Assembly (NCBI GenBank): GCA_964036195.1
Contig: OZ038456.1
Span: forward strand, 24,777,792 to 24,841,791
From: Sphaerolaimus hirsutus
Lineage: Eukaryota; Nematoda; Chromadorea; Monhysterida; Sphaerolaimidae
Length of the DNA: 64,000 nt
Direction: 5' to 3'
The notes under the pieces are model-generated. The model saw only the letters and a program-made list of their open reading frames with translations. It ran no database searches and was not told the origin of the DNA. Shown here piece by piece: positions 7,351-44,539 of the stretch (its first letter is position 1; the number at the start of each line of letters is the position of its first letter). A program made the position numbers and the translations under genes.

Positions 7351-7368
7351 TGGCGCAGCGAGCAGGGT
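7351..7368 (+). promoter_or_regulatory. Primer-binding site of the BEL element
   Basis: TGGCGCAGCGAGCAGGGT follows the LTR end directly. Starting with TGG matches priming by the CCA end of a host tRNA, which starts minus-strand DNA synthesis. I cannot name the tRNA without a search. Confidence 0.7.
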
Positions 7369-12760: not shown

Positions 12761-14660
12761 GAAGGCAGTAACCTGTGGTGGAAGGGGCCAGAATGGCTGA
12801 TGACTGGAGAATGGCCAGAGCCGAAAGTGGAGCCAGTCACGTCAGAAGTAATGGCAGAAATCAAGAGCTCAAGTTCCCAAAAGCCAGTCCAATTTACCTG
12901 GGCGCCACACAGCAAGTGGTCAGTAACCCAGATGCCTGCAATGAACAAGCTGATGATAGCAAGCAAAGCAACCCATTGGGAATTGAGATACAAAGATTCT
13001 CATCATTAACAAAGTTATTGGATGCAACAGTATACGTGATGAGATTTGTGCGACAGATGCACAAAAAGCTCAGCAGAAATGGCAGTCAGAATGTACTGTC
13101 AGAAATCATGGAAAGTATCTGTGGTACAATGAAACCACAGGGAATTGTCAGTATTGAAGAAAGAGAGATTGCGTTGGAATATTGGATCAAAGTGACGCAA
13201 CAAAATCATTACAAAGGAGTGGCAGAGATTCTGGCAACAGGCCACAGCAAAGGCAGCCAGAATGGCAAGAAAGCAGCTGCAGACCAGCAGTTGATCAAAT
13301 GGCTCAATGTGCAAATGCATCAGGATGGAATCCTGAAGTGCCATGGCAGAATGGAGCATACAGACCCCCAGGAGGTCACAGTGCCACTCATACTGTTGCC
13401 AGCAACGGCTACAGTGACTCAGCTGATCGTCAGAGATCAGCATGAGAAGTTGATGCACGCAGGAGTGCAACACACATTGGCAGCAATCAGACAAAAGTAC
13501 TGGATTACACAGGGCAGACGGGTGATTTACAATGTGACCAGAACCTGCCTGACCTGTAAGAAATTAGGAGCGAAGCCGTATCAGCTTCCACCAATGCCAG
13601 ATTTGCCAGAAACCAGAGTTCAGAGAGCCAGACCATTCCAGTACACGGGCTTGGATTATTTGGGACCAGTTTGGTACAAAGTGGACAAAGATCACAGGAA
13701 AATGTGGATCTGTTTGTTCACATGTATGGTGACACGTGCAGTTCACCTGGAAAGTGTGCTGGACATGACAGCACAGGAATTCCTGAACGCAGTCAGGAGA
13801 TTCATTGCCAGGCGTGGAAAGCCTGAGGCAGTGATTTCAGACAATGCAACGCAATTCAAGTTGACAGAGAAAGTGCTCAGCTCAAGCACTGACAAGGCCA
13901 TTAATACTGGGAAAGAATGGTCAGAAATGGTCAAAAGTGGAGCAGTACAGACATACTGTTCACAGCAACAAATCCAGTGGAACATAACAACTCCTATGGC
14001 ACCATGGCAAGGAGGAGTCTATGAGAAAATGGTGGGCATCACCAAGAAACATTTCAAGGCAGCTGTGGGGCACAAAATGTTAACCCTGCAAGAGTTGTTG
14101 ACACTTCTGCCAGAAGTTGAGGCAGTGATCAACAGCAGACCGATCTCTTACATCTATGGTGATGTGAAGAGTCTCAGAGTGCTGACACCGAAAGACTTCC
14201 TGACAGGGGAAGGTCAGATTGGAGCACCACAGTTTGATACAGACAAAGATGGAGAATTTGTGCCCAGAATGGATAATGCAGCGAAACTGCAGAAATATTG
14301 GGAGACAACCCAGCAAACTTTGGATAAGTTCTGGGACTTGTGGCATCAAGAGTACATCCCGAGCTTGAGGGAAAGGACTAAGGTGACACACAAACATGGC
14401 AGATTGATAGCGACTCAAGAACCCAAAGTGAATGAAATTGTGCTGATTTATGAAGAGAACATGCCCAGAGGTGCATGGAGGATGGGTCGCATTGAGCAGT
14501 TAGAGCCCAGCAAAGATGGACAGATTCGCTCAGCAAAAGTCAGAACTGCCAACAGAAATGTGGTCAGCAGACCACTCAATCAATTGTACCCGCTGGAAAT
14601 CAATTCAAAGACAATGGATATCCCAGAGACAGCAGTGACAGTCAAAGTGGATTTACTGGA
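12761..14660 (+). pseudogene. pol: BEL/Pao integrase, 5' frame break
   Basis: After a frame change near 13005 the frame stays open to 15531. It encodes an integrase with an HHCC zinc module (HEKLMHAGVQH followed by CLTCKK, about 13440-13560). The catalytic core has a D in GLDYLGPVW near 13650, a D in ISDNATQF near 13838, and the E of GGVYEKMV near 14015. A C-terminal module with NEIVLIYEENMPRGAWRMG near 14430 matches the domain that closes BEL integrases. Integrase joins the DNA copy to host DNA, and the TTAC duplication fits a 4-bp staggered cut. The domain itself looks intact; the breaks lie upstream. Confidence 0.9.
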
Positions 14661-17334: not shown

Positions 17335-17376
17335 CTTTGCTGCAACAACGGGGTGCAGCAACTCTTCCGCCCGGAG

Positions 17377-18672
17377 TGTGCTGACTGTGGCAAAATGGAT
17401 GGATAAAGAAATACAGAGATTTGATAATTAGGCTCATATTTGTCCATTTACTTATTTGCATTATTTTACATTTCATGCACTATATTAATTTACCACGCAA
17501 ATTATATTTCCTGCACTATATTATTTATCCATGGAGAATATTCAATTCGGAAAGTGTATTATGAGTATTTGATATGTTATGTGGAATATTTAGATTAAAA
17601 GGTCAAATAAGTTATTATTAGGTTTATGAACATGAAATTAGGCTCATTCAACTCGCCGTAATTTTCTGATCATTATTATATATACATTTACATGGTTTAC
17701 TTGCAATTTGAGAAAGTCAAATCTTGTAAAATATTTATGTTCTACGTATTTACCTAGGCCAGCGTCCTAATAGAGAAATAGTGTCCTGTGTGCAACTAGC
17801 ATTTACGGTACGAAGCCCTTCACGTAGGCATAATTATAACCCAGCTCACTACTTTATATTATATTTACTTTGACATTTATAATAATACCCTGCTCAAGTT
17901 AAATATGTTATAAACCCTGCTCAATTTATACACCCATTTACCTCGAATAAGTCCCAGTTTATCAATTATTTAATCTACGTTTCTAGGAAGTGATTATTAT
18001 TGTTGTATTGAATATACCCTACTCTATTTACGTCATTAGGAACATTTGCACTACTATTTACAGTTTCCAAACCCTATTATATTAGTTCCAATGTGCATCA
18101 AAGTTTTCTGACAAATTGAAACCAATTAGTAAATCGGCCGAGTTTGCCGACTTCGCGCCTCTCAAGATTAATAGTTTTTCCATTAGCCCAATTTGTACCT
18201 GGTATTTCTTTACCATAACTATTTGAATGTTTGCACGCGTAGAATAAGCCAACTATTTCAGCTAGATGTGTCTTATTATTGCATTCATGTCTTATTTGTG
18301 CATTTGAATTTAGGAAATTACTGTAGCTGTGTTTTATACATAATTTCCATGTCTTAGCTACTTTGGAAGTTTTTACTTCAGTCTTATGACCCAGTCCCGA
18401 CCCAGAAAATAAGCTAGCGATAGAAACTTTGACTAGGAAGCTCGCTAGGTTTTGCACTTTTGTATCAAGCTGTATCTGATCGAATAAAGTACCTGAAACA
18501 ATCTTGAAACCCCTTTTGAACACGCAACTACGAAATAAACTCAACTTGGATGTCGACAAGTGGACTTTCGGCTACAACGGGAAATCAACTACTCTAAAGG
18601 CCGTTTCTCACTACGGTCTTGGAGTTGCCAGATTCGGTGGTAGAAGACGCTGATTTTGGTGGCTTCATCACA
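17377..18672 (+). repeat. BEL/Pao 3' LTR
   Basis: It begins TGTGCTGACTGTGG and ends CTTCATCACA and is 1296 bp, the same as the 5' LTR. It is followed by TTAC at 18673-18676, matching the duplication left of the 5' LTR. Polyadenylation-type AATAAA signals lie near 18484 and 18534. A clear polypurine tract is not obvious directly upstream (17340-17376), where the sequence is mixed. Confidence 0.92.
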
Positions 18673-29034: not shown

Positions 29035-30005
29035 AGTATGTAGCTAGTATAAACCCTGACATTTTACAGGGTCTTTTACGTGACACATGACATTTTACAC
29101 TTTACAGGGTTTTTTACATGGCCTTGAACTGCCCCCTGGGGGTATTTCAAGGAAGATAAATTCAAGGGGGGAGGGGGAATAATTCAAGGTAATACAGCAT
29201 ATGCATTCCCCATATCCCTCACTACACCACTCCCTCATACACTTTTATAAGCAACTGTGGTAAAGTCGGTGTCGTCACAAAGAAATGGAAAAAAACATGA
29301 TCGCAGCTCGTGGCAACAATCGACAACAAACATCAGGCTCACATGAAAACATTTTTTTTCTTGTGACGACAAGCGCTCATCGCTGCATGGTCGCCAATCA
29401 AAAGCTTGTACTGACAACAAGATTTTTTTGATCAAAAAAAGCGAACCGACAACGTCAAATTTTTCAAATGCTTATAACTATGGAACAAAAAGCCCGATTT
29501 ATCTGAAATTTGGCATGTGAGTGCTCCTTATCAGTGAGTATACTTCACTGTTTTTTTATTGCAGATATGGAACTTTATTCTGGAATTATGGAACTTTTTC
29601 ACTTTTTTATTTGTCGACACAAAACGCAGACTGAACGCAGCTTTAAGAGTCCACAGCTTCCCTAGAGACTCACATGGTAGCGTTTTCACATATTTAAGAT
29701 TACAAAATGTGCTGATGCCCAAATCTGGCTCAACTTTCATTATGTGTGATGCCTAAACAAAGAAAAACTAAATACTATAATAAGTCATACGAAATTTACT
29801 AAATTTAAGAAAATTCTATTTCAGAATCCACAGCCTTCCAGTAGGTTTGCTGTCACAATTTTACACCTACGAAGTCAAAACATGTTCATTTTAGTGAATT
29901 CTGAAAAAGAATTTTCTCGGCTTTCCAATGGTATGAATCATCACAATTAGTTTTTGAAAGTCAAGCCAGATTTGGGTGTAAATCATGTTTTTGAAATCTG
30001 AAGTA
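29035..30005. other. Intergenic with dispersed-repeat pieces
   Basis: 29130-29210 is a partial MITE end. 29270-29760 belongs to a dispersed repeat with GTCGTCACAAAG and TATGGAACTTTATTCTGG words, also found near 52.0 and 57.0-57.3 kb. No gene is seen. Confidence 0.45.
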
Positions 30006-30202
30006 TACCGTATTTCGTTGAACTCGAAATACCACACTCGAAATACCCCCCCCCCCCCCCTTGAAATACCCCCCTCAGAATGGGCACTATGATTTAACCC
30101 CCCCCCCCTTCAAAATACCACCCCCTCCAAATTGAGTGAAAATAGAACATAGTACATGACAAAATGTACATTTTGTGATCTGGCAATGCATAACACAGGT
30201 TA
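30006..30202. mobile_element. Left half of the MITE interrupted by the 12.6-kb element
   Basis: It starts TACCGTATTTCGTTGAACTC, has C-tracts, and runs to ATAACACAGGTTA at 30202. The right half resumes at 42813/42821 with AAAAAGAATGACTGTGTTAC and ends GAGGAAATATGGTA at 43053. In other copies of the family the two halves are contiguous (compare the complement near 22945-22990), so this gives the empty-site structure. Confidence 0.85.
30195..30202. repeat. Target-site duplication, 3' side of the element
   Basis: ACAGGTTA is repeated at 42813-42820. The next base differs on the two sides, so the duplication is 8 bp. Confidence 0.8.
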
Positions 30203-30216
30203 TTATTATTATTATT
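30203..30216 (-). repeat. (TAA)n 3' tail of the element
   Basis: On the minus strand the element ends CACAATAATAATAATAA directly before the target duplication. A short TAA-type repeat tail in place of poly-A is typical of I-like and some other LINE groups. Confidence 0.75.
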
Positions 30217-30303
30217 GTGAACATGAGATATGGGGCCTTATCCATTGCTGGATTCCGCCCCTCTCACTCACCTACAAATCAATTAATTGTCTGCTTTGAT
30301 TGT

Positions 30304-33300
30304 TTATTGATCTGTTATCTGCACTACACATTTGCGGATCATTTCATCTATACCCTGTCTATGGCCATGGCACAGTTTGGCTCCAAGTGGGTTTGTTCTC
30401 CAATCACAGGGTATACTACATATTATTTTCCCTAATTTCATACGCTCCGTCACATTAACACTACACACATGCATTATGTGATGCAAATTTGCTACAATTT
30501 TTACGTTAACACTGGAGCAGTGTCTACACACTTTCCTCTTGGACCCACTTCTATTCCTCAGTGCGTTATATCTGGCAGCCAACCAATTAAGCTCATTATA
30601 GTAGATATTCTTTATTTCTACTTGGTCTATCACACCCCCTCGGTTGTAGACAGCTGTTTCCTGTTTGATTTTATCCCTAATGTGTATCATCCTTTTCCTA
30701 TGAATGTAGTATTTCAATTCCGACCCTTTCAGATTTTGGATAACCGTATTTATCTGTGAGGATATTATGCACTGATTAACAAGTGTCTTATTGGTATTAT
30801 CTACCCTCATACGGGGATTGCCAGAAATCAGCTTGTCGGTTTCATGTGCTCTCACCAACCACCTGGTCCTGCAAGATCTTTGCATATAGTTGTCATTTGT
30901 CAGTATTAATTGATTATATTTGTCTGACGGGAGTATGCCGTTTATGTCATACAACACAGAGCTACTGCTACAGCTAATTGGTAGTCTAGCTGCTTTTTTC
31001 ATCGTCTGTATGTATAGTTTGTCCATTTCTGCTAGTTGGCATCTATCTAGCCCAGTTATTTCGACACCGTACATCGAGCCAGGTTCCACATAGGCTTTCC
31101 ATGTAATATTAGCGGTGTGTAGCGGTGTGACTGTGCCTTTAGCTGCACTTAGAGGTAACGTGCTCAACCGTTTCATTTTTGTCACGACATTGCTTTTGTG
31201 TGCTTTGAATGGATCAGCACCTGTGTTAATTAGTACCCCCAGATATCGAATCTGGTCCGATTCATTAATTATTTCTCGCTTTGCATGTCCTGAACCACCG
31301 ACATCTATGTACCACTTTCGTTTTGCAATTTTACAATCACCCCATCGCAGCACCTCACTTTTCGTTGTGTTGATGCTCACACTCCATCTCCAAGCCCAAG
31401 AGCTGAACACACTCATAAGATGTTCCAATTCACTATCCTTAGATGCCATTATGACAATGTCATCTGCAAAGAATAGTGCTGGTATTTTTTCTTGTCCTAG
31501 ACAACATTTAGCTCCCATTTTAGTGTTCAACAGTTCAGCCGCCAAGTCGTGTATATATATGGCATAAAGTGTTGGACTCAAGGCACAGCCCTGTGCTACT
31601 CCAATCGGGTAGGCCAATGTGTCACTTTCATAGCCCCCGTAGGTCATCACTGCTTTTGTCTTAGAGTAGACATTAGCTATCGCTGTTACTAGGACGCTTG
31701 GTATACCCATCATGTTCATTTTCTTCCATAATTTGTCTCGATCCACTCTGTCAAAGGCTTTGACTGCATCAATAAAGCAGGTAACAAATGGATTACCATT
31801 CACCTGTGCATAATTGAAACATGTTTTTAGTATTTGTACATTGTCAAGTGTTCTTCGGCCCGGGCGAAACCCCCCTTGCATCTCCGTCAGCGCATCATTT
31901 GTTTCTAACCATGTAATTAATCTCCGATTAAGTACTGACATATACACTTTTTTGACATTGCACAAGAGACCAAGAGTGTGGTAATTCAGTAGATTCCCTT
32001 TGTCGCCTTTTTTGTGCAAAAGTATCATTTTGCACAAGGCTGCTTCCTCTGGTATCGGGTCACCTTCAAGCCATTTATTAAAGATTGTGCATAGAGTCTT
32101 TTGATAGTCCTCCTCTAGTAATTTCAGATGCTCATGGAAAACCCCCATGGTGCCTGCCGACTTGTTGTTTTTCAGATTCAATATAGCTTTCTCAATTTCT
32201 ATGAGTGTAATTGGTTCTGATAATTTTTTTGTCTTACCCTCAGGAGCCATAATTTTCGGGACATCACCCACTTCATGCAATGAGCACCCTGTATTGGGCT
32301 TAATCACTACTTGCCATGCTTTTTCCATTTCCTTTTTCATTGCAGTAGCAGATGCAACCGGCTCACCATTGTCGGAATAAATAGTATGTATAACATCTCT
32401 ATCCCCTGTACGTATCTTATTTACTTTTTTGAAAATTTCATTCATCTGATAGGCACCACCCTCTTTTGCCAAACGTTCTATTTGTCTCTGTTTCTGCGCA
32501 CGGTCCAGACAATTTTTCATGTTCCGTAGGTTTCTCCGTTCTAGCTTCAATTCGTTATTCAGTTGTTCTTGTGATACACTAGATTCCAACCGCTCAATTG
32601 ATTTCAGTTTCCGTCGTAATTTGGCTATTTTGCGACATTGTTTCTTTATTTCATTGGGCACCACTTTTGTGGCATTGTCATTTACGTTGACCACAGAGGC
32701 CTTGTTTATTGCTTGGATCACTCCCAAGTAGGAGGAAGGCTGACTTTTTGCTAATTCCTCTTGAAAGTGTATCTCATCTTTCTCTTTTTTTGGGCAGAGA
32801 ATCTTTGTTTTTGGGACTTTCATGTTAACTTTATATCTAAAGTTCATATAGATTGCGTTATAATCTGATTGTAGACTACTGTAGACATCACATTCATCCA
32901 CAACCCCTTTACTCATGCTTAGTGATCCATCTATGAAGCACAGATCTAGTACTGATTTAGCATTGACTCTCTTGAATGTCCAGAGACCGTCCATGCATCG
33001 ATTTGCAGGTGATAGACCCGTTGTGCACATGAAAGCATGAATAAGTTTACCATTCATGTTTATATAAGGATCATTTGTATCTATTCCTAGTGCATCATCC
33101 CCAATATGTCCATTAAAGTCACCAATCACTAGAGTGTTCTCATTTAGTTTCCTGTTAGCCTCTATCATCTTAGTTACTCCTCCCAGTATTTCACTATTTA
33201 GTTTGAATACACTGTTAGATTTCTTTACTTTACTATTGTTTTCTATGTATACAACAACGATATTGAGTTTTGAACGGTGAGTTTCCATTTTGTTTAAGGA

Positions 33301-36300
33301 ATGCCTATCAGTACAATCTGATGTACTTTTTTCTAGGCCTGGGTGATCTGTTATTTTAACACTTAATATGTTGTTTGCCAAATTATCATCAACCTTGTTC
33401 AATGTGTATTTTATTCCCTTACGGATATATATTGACAGGCCTCCGGTCTTTGGCGTAGTTTTAAACTTATGTACTCCTGAATACCCTCCTACACATGCAC
33501 TTTCTGAAGCGTTTTCATACTGTGTTTCAGTAAAACACAGTATTTCAGCACCACTTTTCCGTACTGTGTCTAGTAGACATGCTGCCTGGTTCTTAAGACA
33601 TCTTACATTTTGATATAATACGGAAAGTGCCAGTAGCGCTGAGACTAAGCTTGTCACTTTTGTGGCCTCACACCCCCCTGCAGCACTAACAGGAGTGATT
33701 AATGAAAGTAGCAGAAGTATTTGGAACAACCTACCAACCATGCAATGTTTGACATGTCTATCAATCTTGGTATAATATATTTTCTCATCTTCATGATCTC
33801 TACAGTCATCGCATTTCACATTCATGCCCTCTTTTTTAGAAGTCAAGAAGTAGATTGTTTTACTAATACGTGACATATAGAACTTTCCGAATGACAACAG
33901 TACCCCTAGCATACGGATGACCATAGCCGCGACACCTGCAATAATAATCGAGACTATACCCGATTGTAGGAAGCACCATTTAACTGGATTATAAATTTGA
34001 TCAAAAGAATCTGTCACAGTGTTCATTTTGCCAATAACGAATCGGCCATTCAATACCTCAAGCGAGCATTTTTTGCGAAAATAAAAAAATAAATACTTTG
34101 AAGCCATCCTAGGTGAGTAAAATTTGATGACGCAAGTCATTGCTCTCATACAATCTCGCAAACAATAGGTACAAATGTCTACCGGGTTACGTGTCATGTA
34201 TAGGACATACAAATTTCCCTGTGAAAAATACTCACTGTAAACAGAAAATACGTCAAAAACGTTAAAGACGTAAAATATCTTGAAATCACGAAGCGTGCAA
34301 TCCCGTGTCACTTCTAAACGCGCAAAATTTGCTAAACAGAATGTTGAAATTTTCAAGATTTTCAAAATGGGTAAATAAATAAAGGCATAAATGGTAGTCA
34401 ATGCGGCAGTATTGAAAGAACATGAAATACCCGTTAAAAGCACCATACACATCACAATCCAAATGTTTGAGTCAAAATTGCCCATACGCACACGAAAGTT
34501 GTCGCAGGAATGACGCCAATTATCTTTCCGTGTGCCAGATGTAACTGTGAGATTAATGGGACGTTTGACAGTGTCTAGTTTTTCTAAACGAGAAACCGTT
34601 TCCATGCGATCATGAATTTTTGCATATCTTCCCATTTTACGATTTTTGTTAACATCGGATCTTTCTGCAATGTTGCGATTTTTTAGTATATTAGGATATG
34701 TTTGTGCAAATGTGATTTTATGCGTATTTGAATGTTGGAGGGCGTCAATATAAATACCATCCATGGCGTCTGGGTTTCCAGGCAATGGAATGCTACGGTT
34801 TTGAAATGGTGCCCTAGTTTTACATTTTCGAAAGATAGAAATAATCCCATCCAGTTTCTCACCATAAAAGAAGACGTTGTATACAGCGCAGCATATTGTA
34901 GAGGGGCCGCTGCGCCAACCCGTCGTAACTGTGGTGTAATACAATGGGTTAGACGTCTTCGTACTCGCACGAGCGTTACCTTTTTTCAAATTTACATATT
35001 CCAAGTTCCGGGTTTTAAAAACAGTTTTTTTGAAAACAGTTGACACAATTAGGCACCCGGTTGATACATTTAGAGCGGTATGTAGCAAATCGAAATCACT
35101 GAGAATCGAACTTACCAATTTTATTGATGCTTCTCTAAAAATGACGTTATTGAACGCTGGTTTGTAGATTTCGCCTTCATGATTTCTGCCCGCCTTTTTC
35201 GCGTTTTTTCGACCTGCAAGGAAAGTATTTGCATTGGGAGTACCACAAACCCTGACAACTTTGTGTTGAGCATAAATGTACTTTATGTAAATTTGTTCGA
35301 GTAAATTTTTAAAATTGCAATGTTTAAGTTTCATACTGTATATCAAATTTTCATAATTTCCCCAAATATTATCACACATTTGGATGCTTTTTAAAATATA
35401 ATTTACAAGTCGGCGTGACACACCCCAAATATCTGTAACAAACATGGTTTTAAGGGACTGCAACAGCATGTGGCTCAGCACTTTGGTACCAGATGTGGAC
35501 GTATGCAAACCGTCCCGGGCCACCATATTTGTCATGGCCTTTAGAGGTGTTGGCAGGCACATTTTCGATTTGTGGTGCTCGAGACAAAAACTCATTACTG
35601 GAAGCACCATTACTTTGGAACATCTTGCTCTTAAAAATTCTGTCAGGGCTTGTTCCAAGTCCAAATAAAAGTAGAATATTTCAGCAGACAATTCTTCGCA
35701 CCAGACTGAATAATTGAAATCCGGGAGGGTGGGCCCAATGAGGCTGAGAATGTACCTCCCATGTGGCTGTAGTTTGAATTTTCCTGACTCTTGAATTTGT
35801 TTGACAAAGTTATATACTGGCTGCAGAAAATTTTCCCGGATGGTGACCCCCTTAAAGTCCGTAGCAGTCGCAAGTTCAATGTCTGAACTGTCTAAAACAG
35901 CTCTGATAATCACCGCGTCATATGCAGACCGATATTCATTGTATTTTAGCGCCGTGCCAATGCAGTTTAGCCTTTGTCCACAGTATAATGACCCAGTAGA
36001 ATCAATGTGCAATTTCAGATTTTCCAATGAAGCCTGCCTATATAACTCTGATTTTAGGGCCAGGCTAGTACTGTCCCTAGTTAGGTAAACAGTGTAGAAA
36101 TAGTCATAGTTCGGACATTTTGGCACCGCCATATCATCTATCACGGTGAACATATCCCGCCCATCTGATGGCCGATAGCCCATTTGGGGCCCAAAAGGTG
36201 GCATAATTTTGCAGCGACGCAACACACTGAGTGGTGCCAACAGGGTGTTGTTCAAGGACTTGTCACGCATCAATTTTTGCTCAGCCGGTTTCCCCAATTT

Positions 36301-36621
36301 GATTGATTGTTTCAAAAATCGGCTTATTTTCTTGGCAGAGTGTGCGGACAGGTCTGAGAGCTCAACGAAATCGCTTGGGCCCATACATGCTACCTCTCTG
36401 TTGCAGGCCCTATACGCACGTAGCCCCTTACGCACCTGTGAGAGGGGTGGCGCTTGTTGACCGGGGGTTGAAATCACTTGCTTAGGGGGCGCCACACTTG
36501 CCTGCTCGGGGGCTGCACTGCTGATTTGATTCGAGTTCGTCGCGGCCTCTGGCGAGTCTGAGTTAGGATGCATTCGTTTAAAGTATACAACTGAGCTCAA
36601 GCGTGGATTTTTGTTCGACAT
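30304..36621 (-). CDS. Gene D: long fusion of virus-like and LINE endonuclease-RT protein
   Basis: The frame is open for 2105 codons. ATGs lie at 36621 (overlaps gene C) and 36573, which follows TAAACGA and is preferred. In order: Pro/Ser/Gln-rich start; globular part (about 36400-35500); region with candidate introns and poor protein character (about 35500-34500); hydrophobic segments near 34480-34330 and 33975-33885; Cys/His motif CDDC...H...HxxxHC near 33815-33745; hydrophobic LFQILLLLSLITPVSA near 33735; AP-endonuclease 33640-32830 (YQNVR, TETQ, GDFNGH); RT about 32200-31150 (GGFRPGRRT, FIDAVKAFDRVDR, AQGCALSPTLY, FADDIVIM); C-terminal CRHC...H...C finger near 30540-30470. The endonuclease's final SDH is SDY here. 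No RNase H is seen. Confidence 0.75.
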   Translation of the reverse strand: MSNKNPRLSSVVYFKRMHPNSDSPEAATNSNQISSAAPEQASVAPPKQVISTPGQQAPPLSQVRKGLRAYRACNREVACMGPSDFVELSDLSAHSAKKISRFLKQSIKLGKPAEQKLMRDKSLNNTLLAPLSVLRRCKIMPPFGPQMGYRPSDGRDMFTVIDDMAVPKCPNYDYFYTVYLTRDSTSLALKSELYRQASLENLKLHIDSTGSLYCGQRLNCIGTALKYNEYRSAYDAVIIRAVLDSSDIELATATDFKGVTIRENFLQPVYNFVKQIQESGKFKLQPHGRYILSLIGPTLPDFNYSVWCEELSAEIFYFYLDLEQALTEFLRARCSKVMVLPVMSFCLEHHKSKMCLPTPLKAMTNMVARDGLHTSTSGTKVLSHMLLQSLKTMFVTDIWGVSRRLVNYILKSIQMCDNIWGNYENLIYSMKLKHCNFKNLLEQIYIKYIYAQHKVVRVCGTPNANTFLAGRKNAKKAGRNHEGEIYKPAFNNVIFREASIKLVSSILSDFDLLHTALNVSTGCLIVSTVFKKTVFKTRNLEYVNLKKGNARASTKTSNPLYYTTVTTGWRSGPSTICCAVYNVFFYGEKLDGIISIFRKCKTRAPFQNRSIPLPGNPDAMDGIYIDALQHSNTHKITFAQTYPNILKNRNIAERSDVNKNRKMGRYAKIHDRMETVSRLEKLDTVKRPINLTVTSGTRKDNWRHSCDNFRVRMGNFDSNIWIVMCMVLLTGISCSFNTAALTTIYAFIYLPILKILKISTFCLANFARLEVTRDCTLRDFKIFYVFNVFDVFSVYSEYFSQGNLYVLYMTRNPVDICTYCLRDCMRAMTCVIKFYSPRMASKYLFFYFRKKCSLEVLNGRFVIGKMNTVTDSFDQIYNPVKWCFLQSGIVSIIIAGVAAMVIRMLGVLLSFGKFYMSRISKTIYFLTSKKEGMNVKCDDCRDHEDEKIYYTKIDRHVKHCMVGRLFQILLLLSLITPVSAAGGCEATKVTSLVSALLALSVLYQNVRCLKNQAACLLDTVRKSGAEILCFTETQYENASESACVGGYSGVHKFKTTPKTGGLSIYIRKGIKYTLNKVDDNLANNILSVKITDHPGLEKSTSDCTDRHSLNKMETHRSKLNIVVVYIENNSKVKKSNSVFKLNSEILGGVTKMIEANRKLNENTLVIGDFNGHIGDDALGIDTNDPYINMNGKLIHAFMCTTGLSPANRCMDGLWTFKRVNAKSVLDLCFIDGSLSMSKGVVDECDVYSSLQSDYNAIYMNFRYKVNMKVPKTKILCPKKEKDEIHFQEELAKSQPSSYLGVIQAINKASVVNVNDNATKVVPNEIKKQCRKIAKLRRKLKSIERLESSVSQEQLNNELKLERRNLRNMKNCLDRAQKQRQIERLAKEGGAYQMNEIFKKVNKIRTGDRDVIHTIYSDNGEPVASATAMKKEMEKAWQVVIKPNTGCSLHEVGDVPKIMAPEGKTKKLSEPITLIEIEKAILNLKNNKSAGTMGVFHEHLKLLEEDYQKTLCTIFNKWLEGDPIPEEAALCKMILLHKKGDKGNLLNYHTLGLLCNVKKVYMSVLNRRLITWLETNDALTEMQGGFRPGRRTLDNVQILKTCFNYAQVNGNPFVTCFIDAVKAFDRVDRDKLWKKMNMMGIPSVLVTAIANVYSKTKAVMTYGGYESDTLAYPIGVAQGCALSPTLYAIYIHDLAAELLNTKMGAKCCLGQEKIPALFFADDIVIMASKDSELEHLMSVFSSWAWRWSVSINTTKSEVLRWGDCKIAKRKWYIDVGGSGHAKREIINESDQIRYLGVLINTGADPFKAHKSNVVTKMKRLSTLPLSAAKGTVTPLHTANITWKAYVEPGSMYGVEITGLDRCQLAEMDKLYIQTMKKAARLPISCSSSSVLYDINGILPSDKYNQLILTNDNYMQRSCRTRWLVRAHETDKLISGNPRMRVDNTNKTLVNQCIISSQINTVIQNLKGSELKYYIHRKRMIHIRDKIKQETAVYNRGGVIDQVEIKNIYYNELNWLAARYNALRNRSGSKRKVCRHCSSVNVKIVANLHHIMHVCSVNVTERMKLGKIICSIPCDWRTNPLGAKLCHGHRQGIDEMIRKCVVQITDQ
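31150..32200 (-). other. Non-LTR reverse transcriptase domain within gene D
   Basis: The palm motifs are complete: ILLHKKGDKGNL (motif 1), GGFRPGRRT, FIDAVKAFD (first Asp), GVAQGCALSP, FADDI (both Asps, near 31450-31480), KSEVLRWG and YLGVLI. The style fits LINEs with AP-endonuclease. I cannot assign a clade by eye. Confidence 0.9.
32830..33640 (-). other. AP-endonuclease domain within gene D
   Basis: This domain nicks target DNA to start target-primed reverse transcription. Visible motifs are LYQNVRCL (metal/phosphate-binding Asn), LCFTETQ (catalytic Glu), VIGDFNGH and SDYNAIYMNF. The last normally reads SDH, so the catalytic His is Tyr. TAT differs from CAT by one transition. This copy's nickase may be dead while the rest is intact. 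Confidence 0.85.
35106..35115 (-). other. Strong splice donor inside gene D
   Basis: AAATTG|GTAAGTTCG at 35115 is a consensus donor that ends a short, well-behaved exon. That exon is preceded by the acceptor TTTCCTTGCAG|GTCG near 35212. The matching downstream acceptor is ambiguous; CACCACAG|TTACGACG near 34929 would switch frame, so I leave the gene D introns unresolved. Confidence 0.5.
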
Positions 36622-37474
36622 TGTCAGTAGGGTAACCCCCCCCCCTATCTATACGCACATAAAGTTCATCGGTTCGAATACAGTTTGGCAGTTCGATTAA
36701 ATCAACTGGTTTTGTTGGAAGATATTTAATTTTTAAGATCAAAGTTCCAAGGTGTAATATTTCAGTATCGGTAGCGAATATTAGGTCTAGATATTCTGTC
36801 GGTCCATTTAAAAACAACTTACCAAAAGTCACTTCTTCATCAAAAATTGTCCCCTCGTCAAACATGTCCGTTTCGCCATTTTCAAAGGTCGGCGCGGTGG
36901 GGGTAACTAGATCGCATTCCCCATATTCGAAGCCAGTAAGTTCACTGATCGGCGCAGACGCGGGCGGATTTTTCGCTGCCTGTTTTCCTCGAACTATGTC
37001 CATCAGCTCGGCAATTTTTGCATTTAAGGATGCCACATCGGTTTCACCTGCAGATAAGTAGATAATTAGCTGCATGTCGCAGGTGCATGCACAGTAACAA
37101 AAGGTTTTTTTAGAAATTTTAAAAAAGAATCTTTTTAAAAACGTTTTTTTAAAATATTTTTTACAATTCTTAACACAGATATGTAGAATATAAATTGAAG
37201 ATATAGGAAGAGTCGTTAATACATTATGCCGCAGCCTATATGATTTTGACGCCTGGCCATTTTTTGATTTCCTATCGATGTTATTCAGTAACCCCATACC
37301 AAATCTCCCTTGCTGGTATAACTCACCGCTGATGACCTCTTTGCTCATTTTTGCCTCCGTCATCAAATCATCCGTCATCGCATCAAGGGCATCTGTGTTG
37401 TTGGTGTCGGGTTCAGTTTCCCCATCAAAGCGTGACGACAAAATAGTGTTATGCAGCGGCGTGGCCATATTCAT
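36578..37474 (-). CDS. Gene C: acidic protein, one intron
   Basis: The ATG at 37474-37472 overlaps the TGA of gene B as ATGA; a second ATG follows 6 nt on at 37468. Removing the 279-nt intron leaves about 205 aa. The protein is acidic and low-complexity in its first half (DTNNTDALDAMTDDLM, then FDEGTIFDEEVTFG) with a short coiled-coil-like stretch (SLNAKIAELMDIVRGK). A beta-rich C-terminal part follows (LILKIKYLPTKPVDLIELP). An acidic cofactor placed directly after a nucleoprotein-like gene recalls the position of a viral phosphoprotein, but this is analogy only. The stop TAA at 36580 is four bases from the preferred ATG of gene D. Confidence 0.55.
   Translation of the reverse strand: MNMATPLHNTILSSRFDGETEPDTNNTDALDAMTDDLMTEAKMSKEVISGELYQQGRFGMGLLNNIDRKSKNGQASKSYRLRHNVLTTLPISSIYILHICVKNCKKYFKKTFLKRFFFKISKKTFCYCACTCDMQLIIYLSAGETDVASLNAKIAELMDIVRGKQAAKNPPASAPISELTGFEYGECDLVTPTAPTFENGETDMFDEGTIFDEEVTFGKLFLNGPTEYLDLIFATDTEILHLGTLILKIKYLPTKPVDLIELPNCIRTDELYVRIDRGGGYPTDNVEQKSTLELSCIL
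37048..37326 (-). other. Candidate intron, 279 nt, stop-free
   Basis: The donor AGCG|GTGAGTTAT is a full consensus and the acceptor is CTTATCTGCAG|GTGAAAC. The length is 3x93 and both sites are phase 1. Translation of the inside gives a Lys/Phe/Tyr-rich string typical of AT-rich non-coding DNA, yet no stop occurs. Confidence 0.7.
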
Positions 37475-40400
37475 TCCGCGCCCTCTAAAGTTGCCGTAGG
37501 CGGACCCCCTAGGAGGGCCGCGGCCGCGGGGGGGGCACCCATTCCAAATTGGGGCGCTTGAGCGTTGGCAGAGTTTAACATGTCGCCACGGCCGCGCCCG
37601 CGGCCATAAGAAGCTGGCCCCCCGCGTCCACGGCCGCGCCCCTGCGTGGTGGATTTTTGTAGCAAGGTATATGTGCAATGTAAATGAGTACATACATTTT
37701 TAAAATTTAAATTAGATTCCAAGTTCAAAACATAGCATCTAACAGGTCCCAGACCCGAAGCTAGTTTATTAAGTGTAGCGGGGTTTATGCTGGATACACA
37801 ATTACAATGTCGCAGGAAAGTGTACAAATGAATACTAACCCTCAACATAAAGGCAATTCTTTTATTAATTCCTTGTGGGTCCGTAATTTTCCATATTCCT
37901 TTGGCGTCATATTCTGTAAATGTCCCATATTCTTTCATCTGGACCCAACAGCCGTCTGGATTGCGCTTTCTGTACGCAAGTTTGTGGCTAATTTTGGCTC
38001 TGAGCTCCATCAACGCGTCCCCCCATAAACTCATGAATGGCGCTTTGTAATTCGAACCCACACACGTAGCTAACGCAACCTGCAATGGCATACGATATTT
38101 TATATTTACATAATATTTAGAATATATCTGAGTTGAGATCATTTTAACATAACTATTATTTGACCCTTTGGTACCACATAGATATGTATCGCAAAAATTA
38201 TCAGAACTATTAGTTTGAGACTGTTGGCAACATGCCCACATTTGAAGATTTTTCGCGTATTTGCTTAAACTGTTAGTACGTATCCACACATAACGTGTTT
38301 GCAGCTGTATTAATTGGAAATGTTGGGAATTTGCCAGCATTTGTCGCCGTTTCCAGTATCTACTTGTGTTGGTGATATGTACCCACACAGCACATATTCG
38401 TAATGATTTTGAGCAAGTAAATAAATAAATATTGACCCCCAAGAATACCTCAGCAGCCATTTTGTCCACGCCACACATCAATGCACCTCTCCACCCACTA
38501 TTTGGAAAGGAGCCCGTGCATCGAATGAAACGAAAATTGTCCACGACATCATTTCCGTTTCTTTCCTTGCCCGTTTGCCAAATGAGTCTGAGTGGGATGT
38601 GACATTTTAATACATGTGCAGGCATTACAGATTGGGTGCAGAATAAGCAGAATAGTGCCTTCTTTCGATTGCCTACTAGATAAAAACGTTTTATACTCGC
38701 TAGGCCGTATAGAGTAGAAGTATTTTCGGTTATTCGATAATTTGACTTAGGCGCCATTTTTTGTATAATTTTTGGTTTGATCTGTACCACTATTGTACTC
38801 ACTATATATATATATATATTATCGGCTTTACAAGCAGTACAACCAACCCCCCAGATAGGTGAAACTATAGCTAACCTCAATTGCGGATTTTTCATAATTG
38901 CGCTGCTCAATACACGTATCAGAGCTTTGTAGGCCGGTGAATTTTTCGCGTCTTCTACGGTTGCATAGAGTGGCTCAAAAGAGCGCCCATAGCCAGTGTT
39001 GAACCAAAGCGATGTAGCATTTTCACCTTGAGCACACTGATATTGCCACAATTTACTCCAGGCACCGTACATTTTCCCCATGAAGTCGTGATACTTTTCA
39101 TCAAACTCACTCCCGTTATGCTTCACAAAAAACGGGGTGCACGCAAATACTGCATTCTCAAGTTCCATGCAGCCCAAAGATTTCGCCTCCGCCTGCAAGT
39201 TATAGGATACATATTTCGAAAGTATACGGCATGCGTAACGGGTGATTATCGCCCCCTTCATCTGGTTTTTTTCGATGCTTCGATTACCCATTTTGTTAAT
39301 AAAATGTATGGGTGAATTCAATTTATATTTCAATTCCAATGGCAATTTCGATTTGTTGGTAATTTTCGGCCACACTCGAAAGTTTGCAATATAGAACCCC
39401 AAGATAGATGTAAAAAACTCGTACCAGTAAGGACCAACCATCATCAACGCTAAAGCAATGCACGGGAATTCCATGCCATCCAGTTTCACCATCCAGGAAA
39501 ACATCATGCTTAGTGGATCTAGCGGGTCATTTAGCCAAACTATCATGTCTTTATCCGCGCGGCGACCCCGGAAATCCTGGGGCACATTGCCAATAATTGT
39601 CGTACCCATCTGAAGTGTCTGAAACAGGCGATAGCATGTCAATGACATCATTTTACTTGTAAAATATCTTTTTGAGATGATTCTTGTGTTTACCGGTTTC
39701 ACTTTGCAATTTTTTGACCATATCAATAGGTTTCTGATCATTACAGTGTGCTGTACGATGATATGCAAACGTGTACCTAATGTTTTCTTCGTATAGCCAC
39801 TATTAATTACACAAGTTTCCCCCAAAATTTTACATGACGTAGAATTATTCAAAAACAAGTGGGCAACCCAACTAGCCTCCTTTTTAGGCCCATCCATCTT
39901 CACCTTTTTTGCATCCATCTCTTTCGATGGTTCATCTTGCTGTTTTCGCTTTTGTCCGCTCACGTTTTCATTTTCAGTCTTGGTCGCAGAGGGCCCCGCC
40001 GCCATTGTAGCATAAGTTTGCATTTTAGCGCTGCTATCTTTGATCGAGTCCTTCAATTCAACGAAGCGAGCCAGCAGCTCATCACGTTTTACGCCGCTCT
40101 GTAAAACAAGTATTGAGTAAGAATAGTGTGTGTTAAACCATGAGTATGTAATTATGTATTTTCAGGTGACACAAGAAAAAATGATATTTTGCGCTTTTCG
40201 CGGTAAATTCACCACCCCAAACTCTATCGACATCTTTTTCAGATATTCTCACCTGTGTGTCGATATTGGACACTTTATCATCCAGCGCAATGGTGTCATC
40301 CATCAACATTGTTATATCGCCCTCAATTTGCTCGACTCTTTTCAGTAGCGTGTCGTTATCTTCTTTTAGCGTGCTGGCCAATGTCGCCGTGAAAGATTCG

Positions 40401-40810
40401 AACTGAAAAAGTTTGAGATGCGCGTCGATCATTAATATTAGCTGCTGATCAACTAGAAGGATACACTTTAATTTTGATAACACCCAATTGCCAGCCTGAT
40501 GTTGAGCTACGTGTATTTTTATATTAATTTGGTAGGCACAACAGCCACCCCCACTGAATTTTTTGACAAACTTTAGATTTTTCCTATATTTGAAGTAATT
40601 GACCCCACAGCTTACCTTTTGACAAAAATTGCTGGCAAGATTCATTTCATGCAGGAAGTAGTGCAGCAGCTGATTTGTCATCATGATCGCACGTGAAGCA
40701 TGATTATTCAAATCAAGCCCTGAACAGCTTTTTTGGATTTCGACAACAACTTTTTCCGGGTCAAACGCCACCCCCCCTACACTGTAGTGCCTTCGTAGGT
40801 CTGCACTCAT
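37471..40810 (-). CDS. Gene B: coiled-coil, RG-tailed nucleoprotein-like protein (spliced)
   Basis: The start chosen is ATG at 40810 (MSADLRRHY). The predicted exons are 40810-40616, 40402-40253, 40098 to about 39811, 39618-38876, 38560-38449, 38079-37840 and 37641-37471, about 632 aa in total. The parts in order are a helical N-terminus; heptad-like coiled coils (KEDNDTLLKRVEQIEGD and ELLARFVELKDSIKDS regions); a Lys-rich linker with QKRKQQDEPSKEMDAKKVK; a globular core of about 350 aa rich in Trp/Tyr/Phe; and a C-terminal GRGRGRGG/YGRGRGRG tail followed by Ala/Pro. Coiled coil plus core plus RG tail suits an RNA-packaging protein, either a LINE ORF1p-like trimer or a viral nucleoprotein. 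It ends at TGA 37473-37471, which overlaps the ATG of the next gene. No homologue is identified. Confidence 0.6.
37642..37839 (-). other. Candidate intron, 198 nt, stop-free
   Basis: The donor is TTGAGG|GTTAGTATT and the acceptor CCACCACGCAG|GGGCGC, both phase 0. The downstream exon starts the RG-rich tail. Confidence 0.5.
38080..38448 (-). other. Candidate intron, 369 nt, stop-free
   Basis: The donor is GCTGAG|GTATTCTTG and the acceptor CCATTGCAG|GTTGCG, both phase 0. It contains 123 codons without a stop. Confidence 0.55.
38561..38875 (-). other. Candidate intron, about 315 nt, stop-free
   Basis: The donor is TTGAG|GTTAGCTA. The acceptor chosen by phase is AAGGAAAG|AAACGG; other AG sites are possible. 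The inner sequence has an (AT)n tract and a low-complexity translation but no in-frame stop. Confidence 0.45.
39619..39810 (-). other. Candidate intron, about 192 nt, donor uncertain
   Basis: The acceptor CGCCTGTTTCAG|ACACTTCAG is good. The phase-0 donor could be TGT|GTAATTAAT at 39810 or another GT nearby. The frame is stop-free throughout. Confidence 0.4.
40099..40252 (-). other. Candidate intron, 154 nt, contains a stop
   Basis: The donor is ACACAG|GTGAGAATA and the acceptor CTTGTTTTACAG|AGCGGC. It is not a multiple of three and has a stop ending at 40133, yet its removal joins two coding exons in phase. This is the best single argument that splicing really occurs. Confidence 0.7.
40403..40615 (-). 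other. Candidate intron, 213 nt, stop-free
   Basis: The donor CAAAAG|GTAAGCTG is strong and the acceptor is CTTTTTCAG|TTCGAA. The length is 3x71 with no in-frame stop. Confidence 0.65.
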
Positions 40811-40854
40811 GCTGGGCCAGTTAATGCTCAACGGGGTGGCGTAGCCATCCGGGT

Positions 40855-41178
40855 CTGAAAAGTGATATTTTATTTTTGTGCATTTGTAAACCAACAGACC
40901 ATCGCATTGTATTGAGATTATATACAAGAAATCAATTTCGAGCAGTATACAGGGTGTTTCATAATTCTCGCTCATGTTTGATTTGCCCTCATTATAACAC
41001 ATACCCCATACTTTTGCTACTGTTATTGGTGTAATAATTACCGTCACTGATGAGGTGCGTGTAGGGTAAAACAGGGAAAAGGGGTATAATGTATATGAAA
41101 TTGTTAGGTTGCACCCACCAATTAGTTTTCCAAGGCTTTCAACTGACAGGGCTTTACTTTTGTATACTTTCATCTCAC
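40855..41178 (-). other. Candidate intron, 324 nt, stop-free
   Basis: The donor CTGTAAG|GTGAGATG lies 1 nt past the TAA of ORF A, and the acceptor is ATCACTTTTCAG|ACCCGG. The length is 3x108. Frame is kept across it, and the only stop is the TAA before the donor. Confidence 0.55.
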
Positions 41179-41179
41179 C

Positions 41180-42721
41180 TTACAGGTCCATGCCGCCAAT
41201 ACGCTGATTCGATGCCGTGATTAGAGCCATTTTTCGGCGCTTGGCGAGCGATCCAATGTCTGAAAACGTATGCCATCTTGTAAATACCAATATTAGTGAC
41301 AACGTAGTGCCTACACACCAATAGCTCATGCAGAAAGCGACGCTTTTGACACTAATGACATCATTTAGAGGAAGCGATACTTTAGTAAAGTGCTGATGTT
41401 TAGAGTTTACACAGACCCCCCACATTGATTTTGCTCTTATACCTTTCTCACCTTTTTTTGTGGTTTTCGAATTTTCCCCATGCGTGAATACTTCGTTTTC
41501 AAATGAGTGGACAGATTGTTTTTGCAGGGGGGTTGCACCCAGCCCCATTTTTGAGCGTACCATACTCAGCGCCAATTTTTCAGCTTTAGGCTTGTCCACG
41601 ATCGCTGCCTGAGTGGATACTATACTGCATTCACTTGTATGCCAAACCTCATAGTTATGTATGTAGACATCACACCCCCGACTTGCTATATAACCAGTCT
41701 GTTGAACAAATGTTAAAGTAACAAGATGTAATAGTGCCCACAAATTCACCTCGAACTCTTTTTCATCGATAATGCTCAAAAGCTGGGCGTCCGATTTTCC
41801 AATATTATCGGCAGCTAAACTGGCTGTTGATTTGGTGCGCGATTTTCTGGTACTGCGTAATTTTTTCTTTTCGTCCGGTTCGCCACCCTCCATGGTGTTA
41901 GTAAATTTTGTTAGTGATAATATAATAGGAACCGTTGGCCTGGAAATGAGAGCACGTAGGTGATAGCATGTACCACAAGATATTAGACAACTTTGCATGT
42001 CATTCCTAGATTGCACGATTCCATAATCTACTGTGATGCCCCTCCTTAATTCAGTTTTCAAATATGAATGGATTAGATCCCCATTTGCAAGAGTAGATCT
42101 CGAAAGAACACAAATAGATGTGTTTGCATGATGAAGTCGAGGATAGGTTTCCTTTAATCGTACCCAACACAGGTGTGTATGATATAGTATTGAAGTTATT
42201 TCATTATTTCGTTCACTTCGTTCTATTTTTCCGTAAAAACCGTAAATCTCCATCAATACAGGTAATTTTTCGTCGGAATTGGTCAATATGACATATACGG
42301 CGTTACAATACTGCCCAATAGTGATAGAATATGGAATAGTGCCTGTTAGAAGTGATAGCAAGGCTCTACCGTGCTTTTGGCAGAGTGCCAAGATCTGATT
42401 TTTCGGCAGCATACGTATGCATACCACTGTCATGCTGACAGGAATCAGTGTCTCGGCACTTTGCCAATAACACTGATAGATAGTGTCAAACTCAGACACT
42501 TTGACTAGATAGATTGAGTATTGATTGGGGATTGATAAGTAGTAGCCCGTAGTTGGGCTTTCGTATAGCGACACCAACTTTTGGCATCTGGCCAATTTGG
42601 CCATTTCGACAACTTTGTCGATTGAGGTCACATTTCCGACTCCGAGGAGTCTAGAAAGCGGCCGAAAGGCAGAAAACTCATCTGCCTTTCCTACAGACAA
42701 ACCCGCGTGTTGCGTTACCAC
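41180..42721 (-). CDS. ORF A: small basic protein, probably spliced
   Basis: The frame is open for 513 codons. The left edge starts with GTG, so an ATG is needed: candidates are 42604 (GAAATGG) or 41893, in the strong context ACCATGG. From 41893, removing candidate introns 41749-41609 and 41442-41260 gives 129 aa. That product starts MEGGEPDEKKKLRSTRKSRT, is rich in Lys/Arg/Ser, and ends QRIGGMDL at a TAA (41182-41180). The text between 42600 and 41893 reads poorly as protein and may be an intron or leader. The next gene is in the same frame just beyond this single TAA. The basic character suggests nucleic-acid or nuclear binding. No homology is recognised. Confidence 0.45.
   Translation of the reverse strand: MVTQHAGLSVGKADEFSAFRPLSRLLGVGNVTSIDKVVEMAKLARCQKLVSLYESPTTGYYLSIPNQYSIYLVKVSEFDTIYQCYWQSAETLIPVSMTVVCIRMLPKNQILALCQKHGRALLSLLTGTIPYSITIGQYCNAVYVILTNSDEKLPVLMEIYGFYGKIERSERNNEITSILYHTHLCWVRLKETYPRLHHANTSICVLSRSTLANGDLIHSYLKTELRRGITVDYGIVQSRNDMQSCLISCGTCYHLRALISRPTVPIILSLTKFTNTMEGGEPDEKKKLRSTRKSRTKSTASLAADNIGKSDAQLLSIIDEKEFEVNLWALLHLVTLTFVQQTGYIASRGCDVYIHNYEVWHTSECSIVSTQAAIVDKPKAEKLALSMVRSKMGLGATPLQKQSVHSFENEVFTHGENSKTTKKGEKGIRAKSMWGVCVNSKHQHFTKVSLPLNDVISVKSVAFCMSYWCVGTTLSLILVFTRWHTFSDIGSLAKRRKMALITASNQRIGGMDL
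41260..41442 (-). other. Candidate intron, 183 nt, stop-free
   Basis: The donor is AAAG|GTATAAGAG and the acceptor CGTTTTCAG|ACATTGG, both phase 1. The length is 3x61 with no in-frame stop. Confidence 0.5.
41609..41749 (-). other. Candidate intron, 141 nt, stop-free
   Basis: The donor is GAG|GTGAATTTG and the acceptor ACTCAG|GCAGCG, both phase 0. The length is 3x47 with no in-frame stop. Confidence 0.45.
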
Positions 42722-42746
42722 CGGAAACAGCCTCTCTGTTGGTTTT

Positions 42747-42769
42747 GGTCGGAAGACTTTTTTCCGACC
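42747..42769 (-). promoter_or_regulatory. 5'-terminal hairpin of the element
   Basis: GGTCGGAAGA and TTCCGACC (plus strand) pair to give an 8-bp stem with a short loop, about 45 bases from the element's 5' boundary. It could be part of an internal promoter or an RNA signal in the 5' UTR; function is not shown. Confidence 0.45.
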
Positions 42770-42775
42770 TTTTTT

Positions 42776-42812
42776 CTTTAAAAAGAATGACTGTCTTTAA
42801 AAAGAATGAATG
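42776..42812 (-). repeat. Two imperfect copies of flank sequence at the 5' junction
   Basis: CTTTAAAAAGAATGACTGT (42776-42794) and CTTTAAAAAGAATGAATG (42795-42812) both resemble the target flank TTAAAAAGAATGACTGTG at 42818-42835. They look like templated filler added when the 5' end was joined, rather than element sequence. Confidence 0.6.
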
Positions 42813-42820
42813 ACAGGTTA
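42813..42820. repeat. Target-site duplication, 5' side of the element
   Basis: ACAGGTTA, identical to 30195-30202. It is followed by the remaining MITE half. Confidence 0.8.
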
Positions 42821-43053
42821 AAAAGAATGACTGTGTTACGTTATAACATGGTTTATACCATCTACATTATTATTAAACTCTGTAGACTATTATACATGGT
42901 GATTTTTGTCACATTTTTCAATGTCTGCGTACATTATTAGTACTGTGAGTTCAAATTATTTCTTGCGAAAATTGCCCCCCCCCCCTCAAAATACCCCCCT
43001 CAAAGTTCTCACTCTGAAACAAAACCCTGGGGGTATTTTGAGGAAATATGGTA
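42821..43053. mobile_element. Right half of the MITE interrupted by the 12.6-kb element
   Basis: It resumes the family core (TTATAACATGGTTTATACCA, then TGTCTGCGTACATTATTAGT), has C-tracts, and ends GAGGAAATATGGTA. Confidence 0.85.
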
Positions 43054-43288
43054 AAAATGCTAAAATGAGGTTCTGGGGAGGCTGTGGATTCTGAAAGAGC
43101 ACATTCTCAGCTTCACAAGGGTACAAAACATAGCCATTACATCTCCTTAGTAACAACCTCAAATGCTACGCAATCTCCACATGTCCACCACAAAATGAGC
43201 CTGTTTTGGTTTATTAGGTATACCGTATAAGGTCATAATGGTAACCCTACTAAAATGTCTCATGGAAATGAAACAAAACAGTCCTGAT

Positions 43289-44539
43289 TAGTGATGGAAA
43301 AAGCGCCAGGCTTTTGGCGCCAAGCGCCAAAAGCACCATGGCGCTTTTCAGACCTCGGCGCCAAGCGCCAATGGTGCCAGAGCAAAATGGCGCCAAGCGC
43401 CAAAAGCGCCATGGCGCTTTTCTGGACCACGGCGCCAAGCGCCAACGGCGCCAGGAGGCTATGGCGCCAAGCGCCAATGGCGCCAGCGCCAAAGCGAATG
43501 CACTTCTTTGTGATGCATTGCATAGGCAGTTCATGGTGTCGTAAATGTGTTCCTTACTATTGCTTTGTGTGAGCTATATCACTTTCCAAAACATAATTGC
43601 ATTATCCCACAGTATACCTAAGTGCTTTTTGCTGCCAAAAAGCTCATACTAGGGATGGGAAAACGTTTTTTAATGACCCTGTTTTTTAAAAAAAGCTGTG
43701 TTTTTAAAAACCGTTTTTGTAAGTCACCAGATATGGTTATGAGTTAACATAAATATGCAGGTATGTCAGTCAAGTGGCTGTACCTTCTGATGTAATTTAT
43801 AGCCATAGAATGGATGTGGAACCATGGGATAGCATTATAAAACGAGATAGGTACCATGGAGCTTTCTGTCAGAAATATTAATTCTTGTTTCGAGTCATGT
43901 CTGTCGAATGGGTGGCGAACTTGTCCGGGAAGGTGTTTATGCCCCACAAACGCTAGTTGACTGGCTCCGATCCCAATTTAAGGCTTGCGTTTGAACTTCG
44001 TTCGTCAGCTCGTCAGCAAGTTTTGAATCGGGATCGGGACCTGTCGACATTTGTTGTCGATGTCAACAAGCATGTGTAGGGCCAATGTGGGATGGATATT
44101 ACATACTACACTAATATGTTTATAACAGCATATTATTGGACAATAGCATGAGCAAATGGAAGCTTTTACACCAAAAATGCCTCAAAATGCACCTACAATG
44201 CTATAATGTTATTCCAGAGTACCAGAGCCATTCTATTTCCGTATGTAACATCACAAAGTGACACCACGTGTGTGATATAACTATGTGTTGTACCCTGCGC
44301 GTTTTTCACTGTCTGGCGGTGGCGCTTTTTTGGCGCTTTTTTAAATGCTAGCGCCAAGCGCCAATAGCGCCAGAGCATGTTAGCGCCAAGCGCCAAAAGC
44401 GCCATGGCGCTTTTGGGACTAGCGGCGCCAAGCGCCACTGGCGCCAAACCAAAATGGCGCCAAGCGCCAAAAGCGCCATGGCGCTTTTTGCTTTGGCGCT
44501 AGCGCCAGGCGCCAGCGCCATGGCGCTTTTCCATCACTA
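43289..44539. mobile_element. hAT-like element with GCGCC palindrome arrays
   Basis: The ends are TAGTGATGGAAAAAGCGCC and its complement GGCGCTTTTCCATCACTA. The flanks carry a perfect 8-bp duplication GTCCTGAT at 43281-43288 and 44540-44547. Each subterminal region (43300-43495 and 44310-44525) is an array of short palindromes around GGCGCCAAGCGCC and AAAGCGCCATGGCGCTTT. The middle has no transposase, so it is non-autonomous. The Ala/Pro-rich ORFs here come from the repeat itself. Confidence 0.88.

Follow-up and report, generated by a model that had tools for sequence, protein, structure and literature searches.

The 12.6-kb element in the window (the whole 64-kb stretch of DNA that was analysed) is probably one member of a multi-copy family of giant LINEs that have an AP-endonuclease, ORF1-type genes of their own and approximately 13 introns, nearly all of them readable; their unspliced RNA would be translated to supply the reverse transcriptase (RT) in cis. 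Only 5 stop-or-frame-switch events were found on the minus strand of the element in 12,493 nt, compared with 100 on the opposite strand and with 109-140 on either strand of three length-matched control stretches. Two other copies, A (C7) and B (C13), were read complete with their flanks and were found to contain open frames of 4,561 and 4,347 codons, of which 4,439 and 4,248 remain when counting starts at the first ATG within the element. The five long minus-strand frames of the preliminary description are thus real, but they are not five separate genes; elsewhere they are parts of one frame.

Insertion site and endonuclease-reverse transcriptase module

The TSD is the 8-mer ACAGGTTA, present at 30195-30202 and 42813-42820 of the window; it is weak by itself, the chance expectation being 2.2 per window. 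To look for an uninterrupted target, flanking sequence from both sides (29700-30202 and 42821-43400) was concatenated by script and compared with MITE relatives in the window. The joined flanks aligned across the junction to four relatives (25601-25199, 1869-2338, 23021-22787 and 23478-23078), in each of which the 8-mer region occurs once. Because the match runs right across the junction in all four, 30203-42820 is read as a single insertion into an older MITE, and the one 12.6-kb event claimed previously was confirmed by relatives that are uninterrupted at this point. The left half of the target MITE (30006-30202) ends in the TSD and is followed by the LINE's 3' (TAA)n tail (30203-30216, minus strand); the second TSD copy and the right half of the MITE occupy 42813-43053. 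At the 5' junction, 42780-42812 is filler copied from the target, identical to the neighbouring target at 17 of 17 nt; none of 4000 42-mers drawn at random from the element reached this score. Leader homology with three other copies starts at 42779. The element proper is accordingly placed with its 5' end near 42779, and 42780-42812 is taken as target repeat rather than element sequence; the earlier limits had captured the event and missed both of these details. Filler and (TAA)n tail together have the anatomy of target-primed reverse transcription run to the RNA end, and the window copy has the TSD and 3' tail by which an AP-endonuclease LINE inserted in this manner is recognised. TSDs elsewhere were weak (a 7-mer for copy A, nothing convincing for copy B), and an (AAT/TAA)n tail was located 156 nt past the stop codon in both copies. 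A 74-bp unit built of GGCGCCAAGCGCCAA also forms arrays in the window (43315-43485, 44351-44488 and 62854-63025), and a similar GGCGCC-rich stretch adjoins the 5' side of copy B.

The intronless module at the 3' end (30304-33609, minus strand) was delimited by Pfam, PDB relatives and conserved columns, and it comprises an AP-endonuclease (approximately 33609-32851), an RT (approximately 32007-31234) and a C-terminal CCHC-type motif (approximately 30528-30463). The RT was well clear of the Pfam cut-off (PF00078, 2e-29), and the endonuclease was barely above it (PF03372, 24.7 bits against 24.5). Relatives of the RT in the PDB were LINE-1 and R2 chains, the endonuclease motif columns were common to 22 database relatives, and the module was 79 and 77% identical in two other copies, without stops. 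The two Pfam domains, the PDB relatives and the (TAA)n tail uphold the AP-endonuclease/RT LINE that had been proposed for this end. In a tree of 54 rows without named reference clades, the query grouped with P0001 (97/91), and its identity to any row was at most 30%. A hydrophobic, signal-peptide-like stretch was detected by hydropathy immediately before the endonuclease (33670-33750, minus strand). A similar stretch occurs in each of the 4 copies displayed and, at the chosen hydropathy threshold, in 3 of the 22 database relatives, so it is not general there. One database relative, P0017, has the stretch DIELNPGP directly preceding its endonuclease, which resembles a 2A peptide.

Related copies and the upstream block

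The endonuclease segment was searched across the host genome (348 Mb, 762 contigs, with the window at C9:24777792-24841791). There were 41 matches listed (40 of 54 candidates scored), and the 24 fullest besides the window's own had 72-76% identity. When the 10 kb upstream of the best 20 of the 40 other matches was taken, block exons in unchanged order were found in 14 copies at different places, with the exons running from c1 through e1 in 12 (including L026, which is without c5 and d1 matches); the block begins at c5 in L015 and is limited to e1-e2 in L020. Because 14 of 20 copies carry these exons upstream in identical order, the block is assigned to the LINE. Mobility of the block with the LINE, as the preliminary description had it, was thereby borne out, and the contrary pattern named there (other copies ending at the endonuclease, with the block single-copy) was examined in the same set, where those 14 copies have the block. 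Exon matches across copies had 31-92% amino acid identity, and there was no stop in any exon match displayed by tblastn. Conserved DNA blocks stopped at the predicted exon limits, as in L021 (40857-40612, 40408-40245, 40101-39870, 38082-37838, 36569-35423 and 35217-35110). The c4-c5 stretch had 183 matches in the genome, and at no fewer than 16 distinct places among the matches listed it lay in a frame open for 4,000 aa or more. Two of these matches, C2:7096282 and C3:18082440, had an equal open-frame length of 4,407 aa and near-equal identity and are possibly recent copies of one element. No block exon was found within 10 kb upstream in 6 of the 20 copies (L009, L010, L012, L013, L024 and L028). 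A short relative was seen at L009:7474-10000, where the 5' leader lies approximately 1.9 kb from the endonuclease in a single open frame without the c-d-e block; this form would be either a deletion or a copy of spliced RNA.

All features upstream of the endonuclease are on the minus strand. The 5' leader (42355-42779), delimited by folding z-scores and by its homology in three copies, is strongly folded as RNA: a 303-nt stretch had a z of -6.6, and the first four 160-nt windows gave -3.8, -5.5, -2.6 and -7.4, compared with a 125-window mean of -0.15. It forms a dense run of hairpins. A 5' hairpin is found at the corresponding position of copy A too, with a different sequence, and the hairpins may be a conserved RNA structure. 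A sub-threshold Rfam match to a bacterial sRNA at the 5' hairpin, on the opposite strand, was taken as chance. Tblastn matched exon b1 (41891-41750) and the basic exon b2 (41608-41452) in 6 of 20 copies each; b3 (41259-41184), a short exon, had no tblastn match in the 20 copies and a DNA match in 3. Region c (37474-40854) was supported by collinear exon matches starting at c1 in 12 of 20 copies and by conserved GT/AG. It contains exons c1 (40854-40616), c2 (40402-40253), c3 (40098-39870), c4 (39609-39433), c5 (39198-38876), c6 (38587-38449), c7 (38079-37840) and the RG-rich c8 (37641-37474), with introns between. Exon d1 (37327-37465) was matched by tblastn in 12 of 20 copies, the acidic d2 (36823-37047) in 13 of 20, with splice boundaries, e1 (35424-36557; 377 aa, conserved GDS...DxxH) in 14 of 20 and e2 (35116-35213) in 3 of 20. 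The region between e2 and the endonuclease (34109-35115) probably has more than one intron, and in-frame reading gave one stop-free frame of 335 codons.

The window copy itself is judged from its letters to be a damaged family member. A stop interrupts it at 41180-41182, and the frame is changed within two introns and once more between c8 and d1. Its endonuclease and RT are substituted at five places in columns invariant in the 22 database relatives; a sixth substituted column, residue 986, coincides with a cut made in the query and was not counted. A histidine of the endonuclease catalytic motif and an RT arginine, both substituted in the window copy, are the usual residues in copies A and B, and a third substituted position is also unusual in both.

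Introns and the reading frame

Approximately 13 spliceosomal-type introns are predicted to interrupt the block and to be retained in the genomic copies. Among boundaries homologous to the window's sites, GT was present in 85 of 93 donors and AG in 93 of 96 acceptors, with offsets fixed post hoc after the boundary alignments had been inspected and with three of the GT/AG counted for L018 being exon letters. Donors after c3, e1 and e2 and the acceptor before c4 were excluded from this count as unresolved, and so were the c4 donor and the c5 acceptor, though these looked regular. Of the 8 donors without GT, 7 are in copies that run on into other exon sequence after c7, and the other is in L018, which is intronless there. 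Acceptors were pyrimidine-rich, GT-AG pairs bracketed low-GC segments in the window, and intron interiors could not be aligned between copies in the DNA comparison. When the window was segmented blind with a two-state model, exon starts fell at acceptor-like sites (P 0.0004), and the model gave no significant donor enrichment at exon ends (P 0.36); an RT-trained segmentation was dropped as too coarse.

The inter-exon segments were multiples of three in 113 of 120 cases, and 112 of these 113 had no in-frame stop; the mean number of stops per segment was 0.01 in frame versus 7.05 in the other frames, and the remaining 7 segments changed the frame. Only exon pairs 30-1500 nt apart were counted, which drops the two fused junctions of L018 and longer gaps. 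Six of the 120 segments cross the short exon b3, and another six are the c8-d1 stretch, which is no intron; without the latter, 107 of 114 kept the frame and 106 of 107 were open. In the window, 11 segments with 1,096 in-frame codons contained 0 stops when 76.7 were expected (P 3e-35), the two frame-changing segments (40252-40099 and 36822-36558) lying outside this set. All 11 window introns were better described by a position-free no-stop model than by a coding-periodicity model (total LLR -35.0), and 9 of 14 exons favoured the coding-periodicity model (total +21.1). Because nearly all introns have lengths of 3n and no in-frame stops, the unspliced RNA is read as open all the way from the 5' leader through the RT, as in the two copies read whole. 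The introns and their translatability had been missed when the block was previously described as a viral-type gene set.

In L018, exons c5, c6 and c7 were fused exactly; two introns were gone, no base was gained or lost and the frame was open. Since exactly two introns were lost, this copy is interpreted as the expected product of copying a partly spliced RNA. A cycle can be proposed in which the element inserts by target-primed reverse transcription and a fraction of its transcript is spliced to give the conserved ORF1-type proteins. Full-length unspliced RNA would be translated, so that the endonuclease and RT are made in cis on intron-bearing RNA, and copying of that RNA would preserve the introns. 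A stop or frame change in an intron would sever the RT from its carrier RNA, and copying of spliced RNA instead would make introns vanish exactly, as in L018. Our judgement is evenly divided on the further reading that the introns are kept because they are translatable, with the unspliced RNA serving as a messenger of more than 4,000 codons that provides RT in cis and splicing acting as the switch from genome to mRNA. If this is true, selection for RT synthesis in cis would police each intron for stops and frame.

Stop-free introns of non-coding composition would suit the avoidance of premature stops equally well if the introns are spliced, are open merely to protect intron-retaining RNA from nonsense-mediated decay, and spliced RNA yields an RT that acts in trans. 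We consider this explanation unlikely, since lengths of 3n maintained down to the endonuclease-RT frame are not so needed if spliced RNA alone gives RT, and non-LTR RTs generally favour their own RNA, a preference established for LINE-1. Slightly less probable still is that the segments are not introns and are instead hypervariable linkers of a never-spliced giant polyprotein. The in-frame lengths, the near absence of stops and the single open frame of two copies are what such linkers would give. However, GT and AG recur at homologous sites with pyrimidine-rich acceptors, the segments have the codon composition of stop-free non-coding DNA, and the exact loss of two of them in L018 is as spliced RNA would yield. 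Translation of intron-bearing RNA in cis is the reading that we retain.

Block proteins and comparison with known systems

In an alignment of 13 e1 sequences, D161, S162, D348 and H351 were invariant in 13 of 13 and G160 was nearly so, an arrangement that we take, from the motif roles, to be that of SGNH hydrolases. The Pfam SGNH model met the C-terminal part of e1 in 3 of 13 members below the cut-off (E 0.08-0.16), and a PDB profile search with e1 returned no esterase. Together these results are suggestive of an SGNH-esterase-like protein, as in the ORF1 proteins of CR1/RTEX LINEs. Against L020 and L021, dN was 0.08 and dS 0.97 and 0.88 (dN/dS approximately 0.08-0.09), the remaining pairs being saturated, and e1 is read as strongly constrained. 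Single-sequence structure models were too poor to use (mean pLDDT 37 and 33).

The block had been called virus-like and the element a chimera of a LINE with viral genes, and the basic, RG-tailed, acidic and membrane segments of the block would fit this. The window also contains another element with a viral-type fusion protein, a BEL/Pao LTR retroelement on the plus strand (6055-17676; its two direct repeats of 300 nt, 99% identical, lie at 6055 and 17377), whose ORF at 15982-17334 matches a Monjiviricetes fusion glycoprotein (PF24664, 4.7e-8); it is env-bearing and probably young. However, over the LINE Pfam recognised the RT and endonuclease alone. Region c had no homologue in the protein database, Pfam, PDB or IMG/VR, e1 had none in Pfam, PDB or IMG/VR, and no relative was found in IMG/VR for the RT or P0001 either. 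A mononegavirus-like N-P-M order for c-d-e was also considered, and was dropped after the collinear exon survey and the e1 alignment. With no viral homologue in these searches, with introns at conserved sites and with a GDS...DxxH arrangement in e1 like that of a non-LTR ORF1 esterase, a viral source of the block is not supported by the sequence comparisons, and we regard the chimera as highly improbable. Practically no credence is left to a host gene's unspliced transcript carried once by 5' transduction, or to another element landed in the LINE: introns are expected in a unit retro-inserted from carried pre-mRNA, but this is contradicted by the identical order of the block in 14 of 20 copies that lie at separate locations, by exon identities of 31-92% at the amino acid level and by an open frame shared through the endonuclease-RT module.

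RNA-mediated copying should erase introns. Exitrons are in-frame spliceable stretches of protein-coding exons, and the introns described here resemble them in their 3n length (113 of 120), lack of in-frame stops (112 of 113) and GT-AG ends. They differ in that nearly every intron of a transposable element is so shaped and in that their composition is non-coding.

CR1, RTEX and Penelope-like elements are known to have an ORF1 esterase with coiled coils upstream, and in CR1/L2/RTEX-type LINEs such as ZfL2-1 coiled coils and poorly conserved linkers come before the esterase (PMC3905857). The present element is like these CR1/L2/RTEX LINEs, so far as that text describes them, in its AP-endonuclease/RT and in a GDS...DxxH protein located after an acidic, partly helical stretch; the esterase kinship is suggestive only. 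Unlike them, it has approximately 13 introns, a length of 12.6 kb, extra b and c regions, and ORF1 and ORF2 in one frame. The available portions of two accounts of bdelloid rotifer Terminons (PMC6431247, PMC5408684) describe giant retroelements with several extra ORFs and with coiled-coil and membrane segments, as here. Terminons, however, have an Athena-type Penelope RT, are telomere-linked and reach up to 40 kb, whereas the window holds a LINE with a TSD inside a MITE.

In the part of the Penelope account available (PMC3846280), Penelope elements are set apart from all other retrotransposon types by dispersing intron-containing genes, and stop-free introns of 3n length were not found in that part. 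The retention of introns is shared with Penelope-like elements, but these have a GIY-YIG endonuclease; neither this nor an Athena-type RT was found in the window element, which has an AP-endonuclease and a LINE-type RT. No LINE of this kind was found in the literature searched, some of it seen in part and with subscription journals mostly falling outside it. A LINE family with approximately 13 nearly all readable introns would be a counterexample to intron dispersal by Penelope elements only, and it offers a testable rule for the survival of introns through reverse transcription. The many copies in one genome would make intron gain, loss and stop avoidance measurable, and the family is relevant to the question of whether LINE proteins work on their own encoding RNA.
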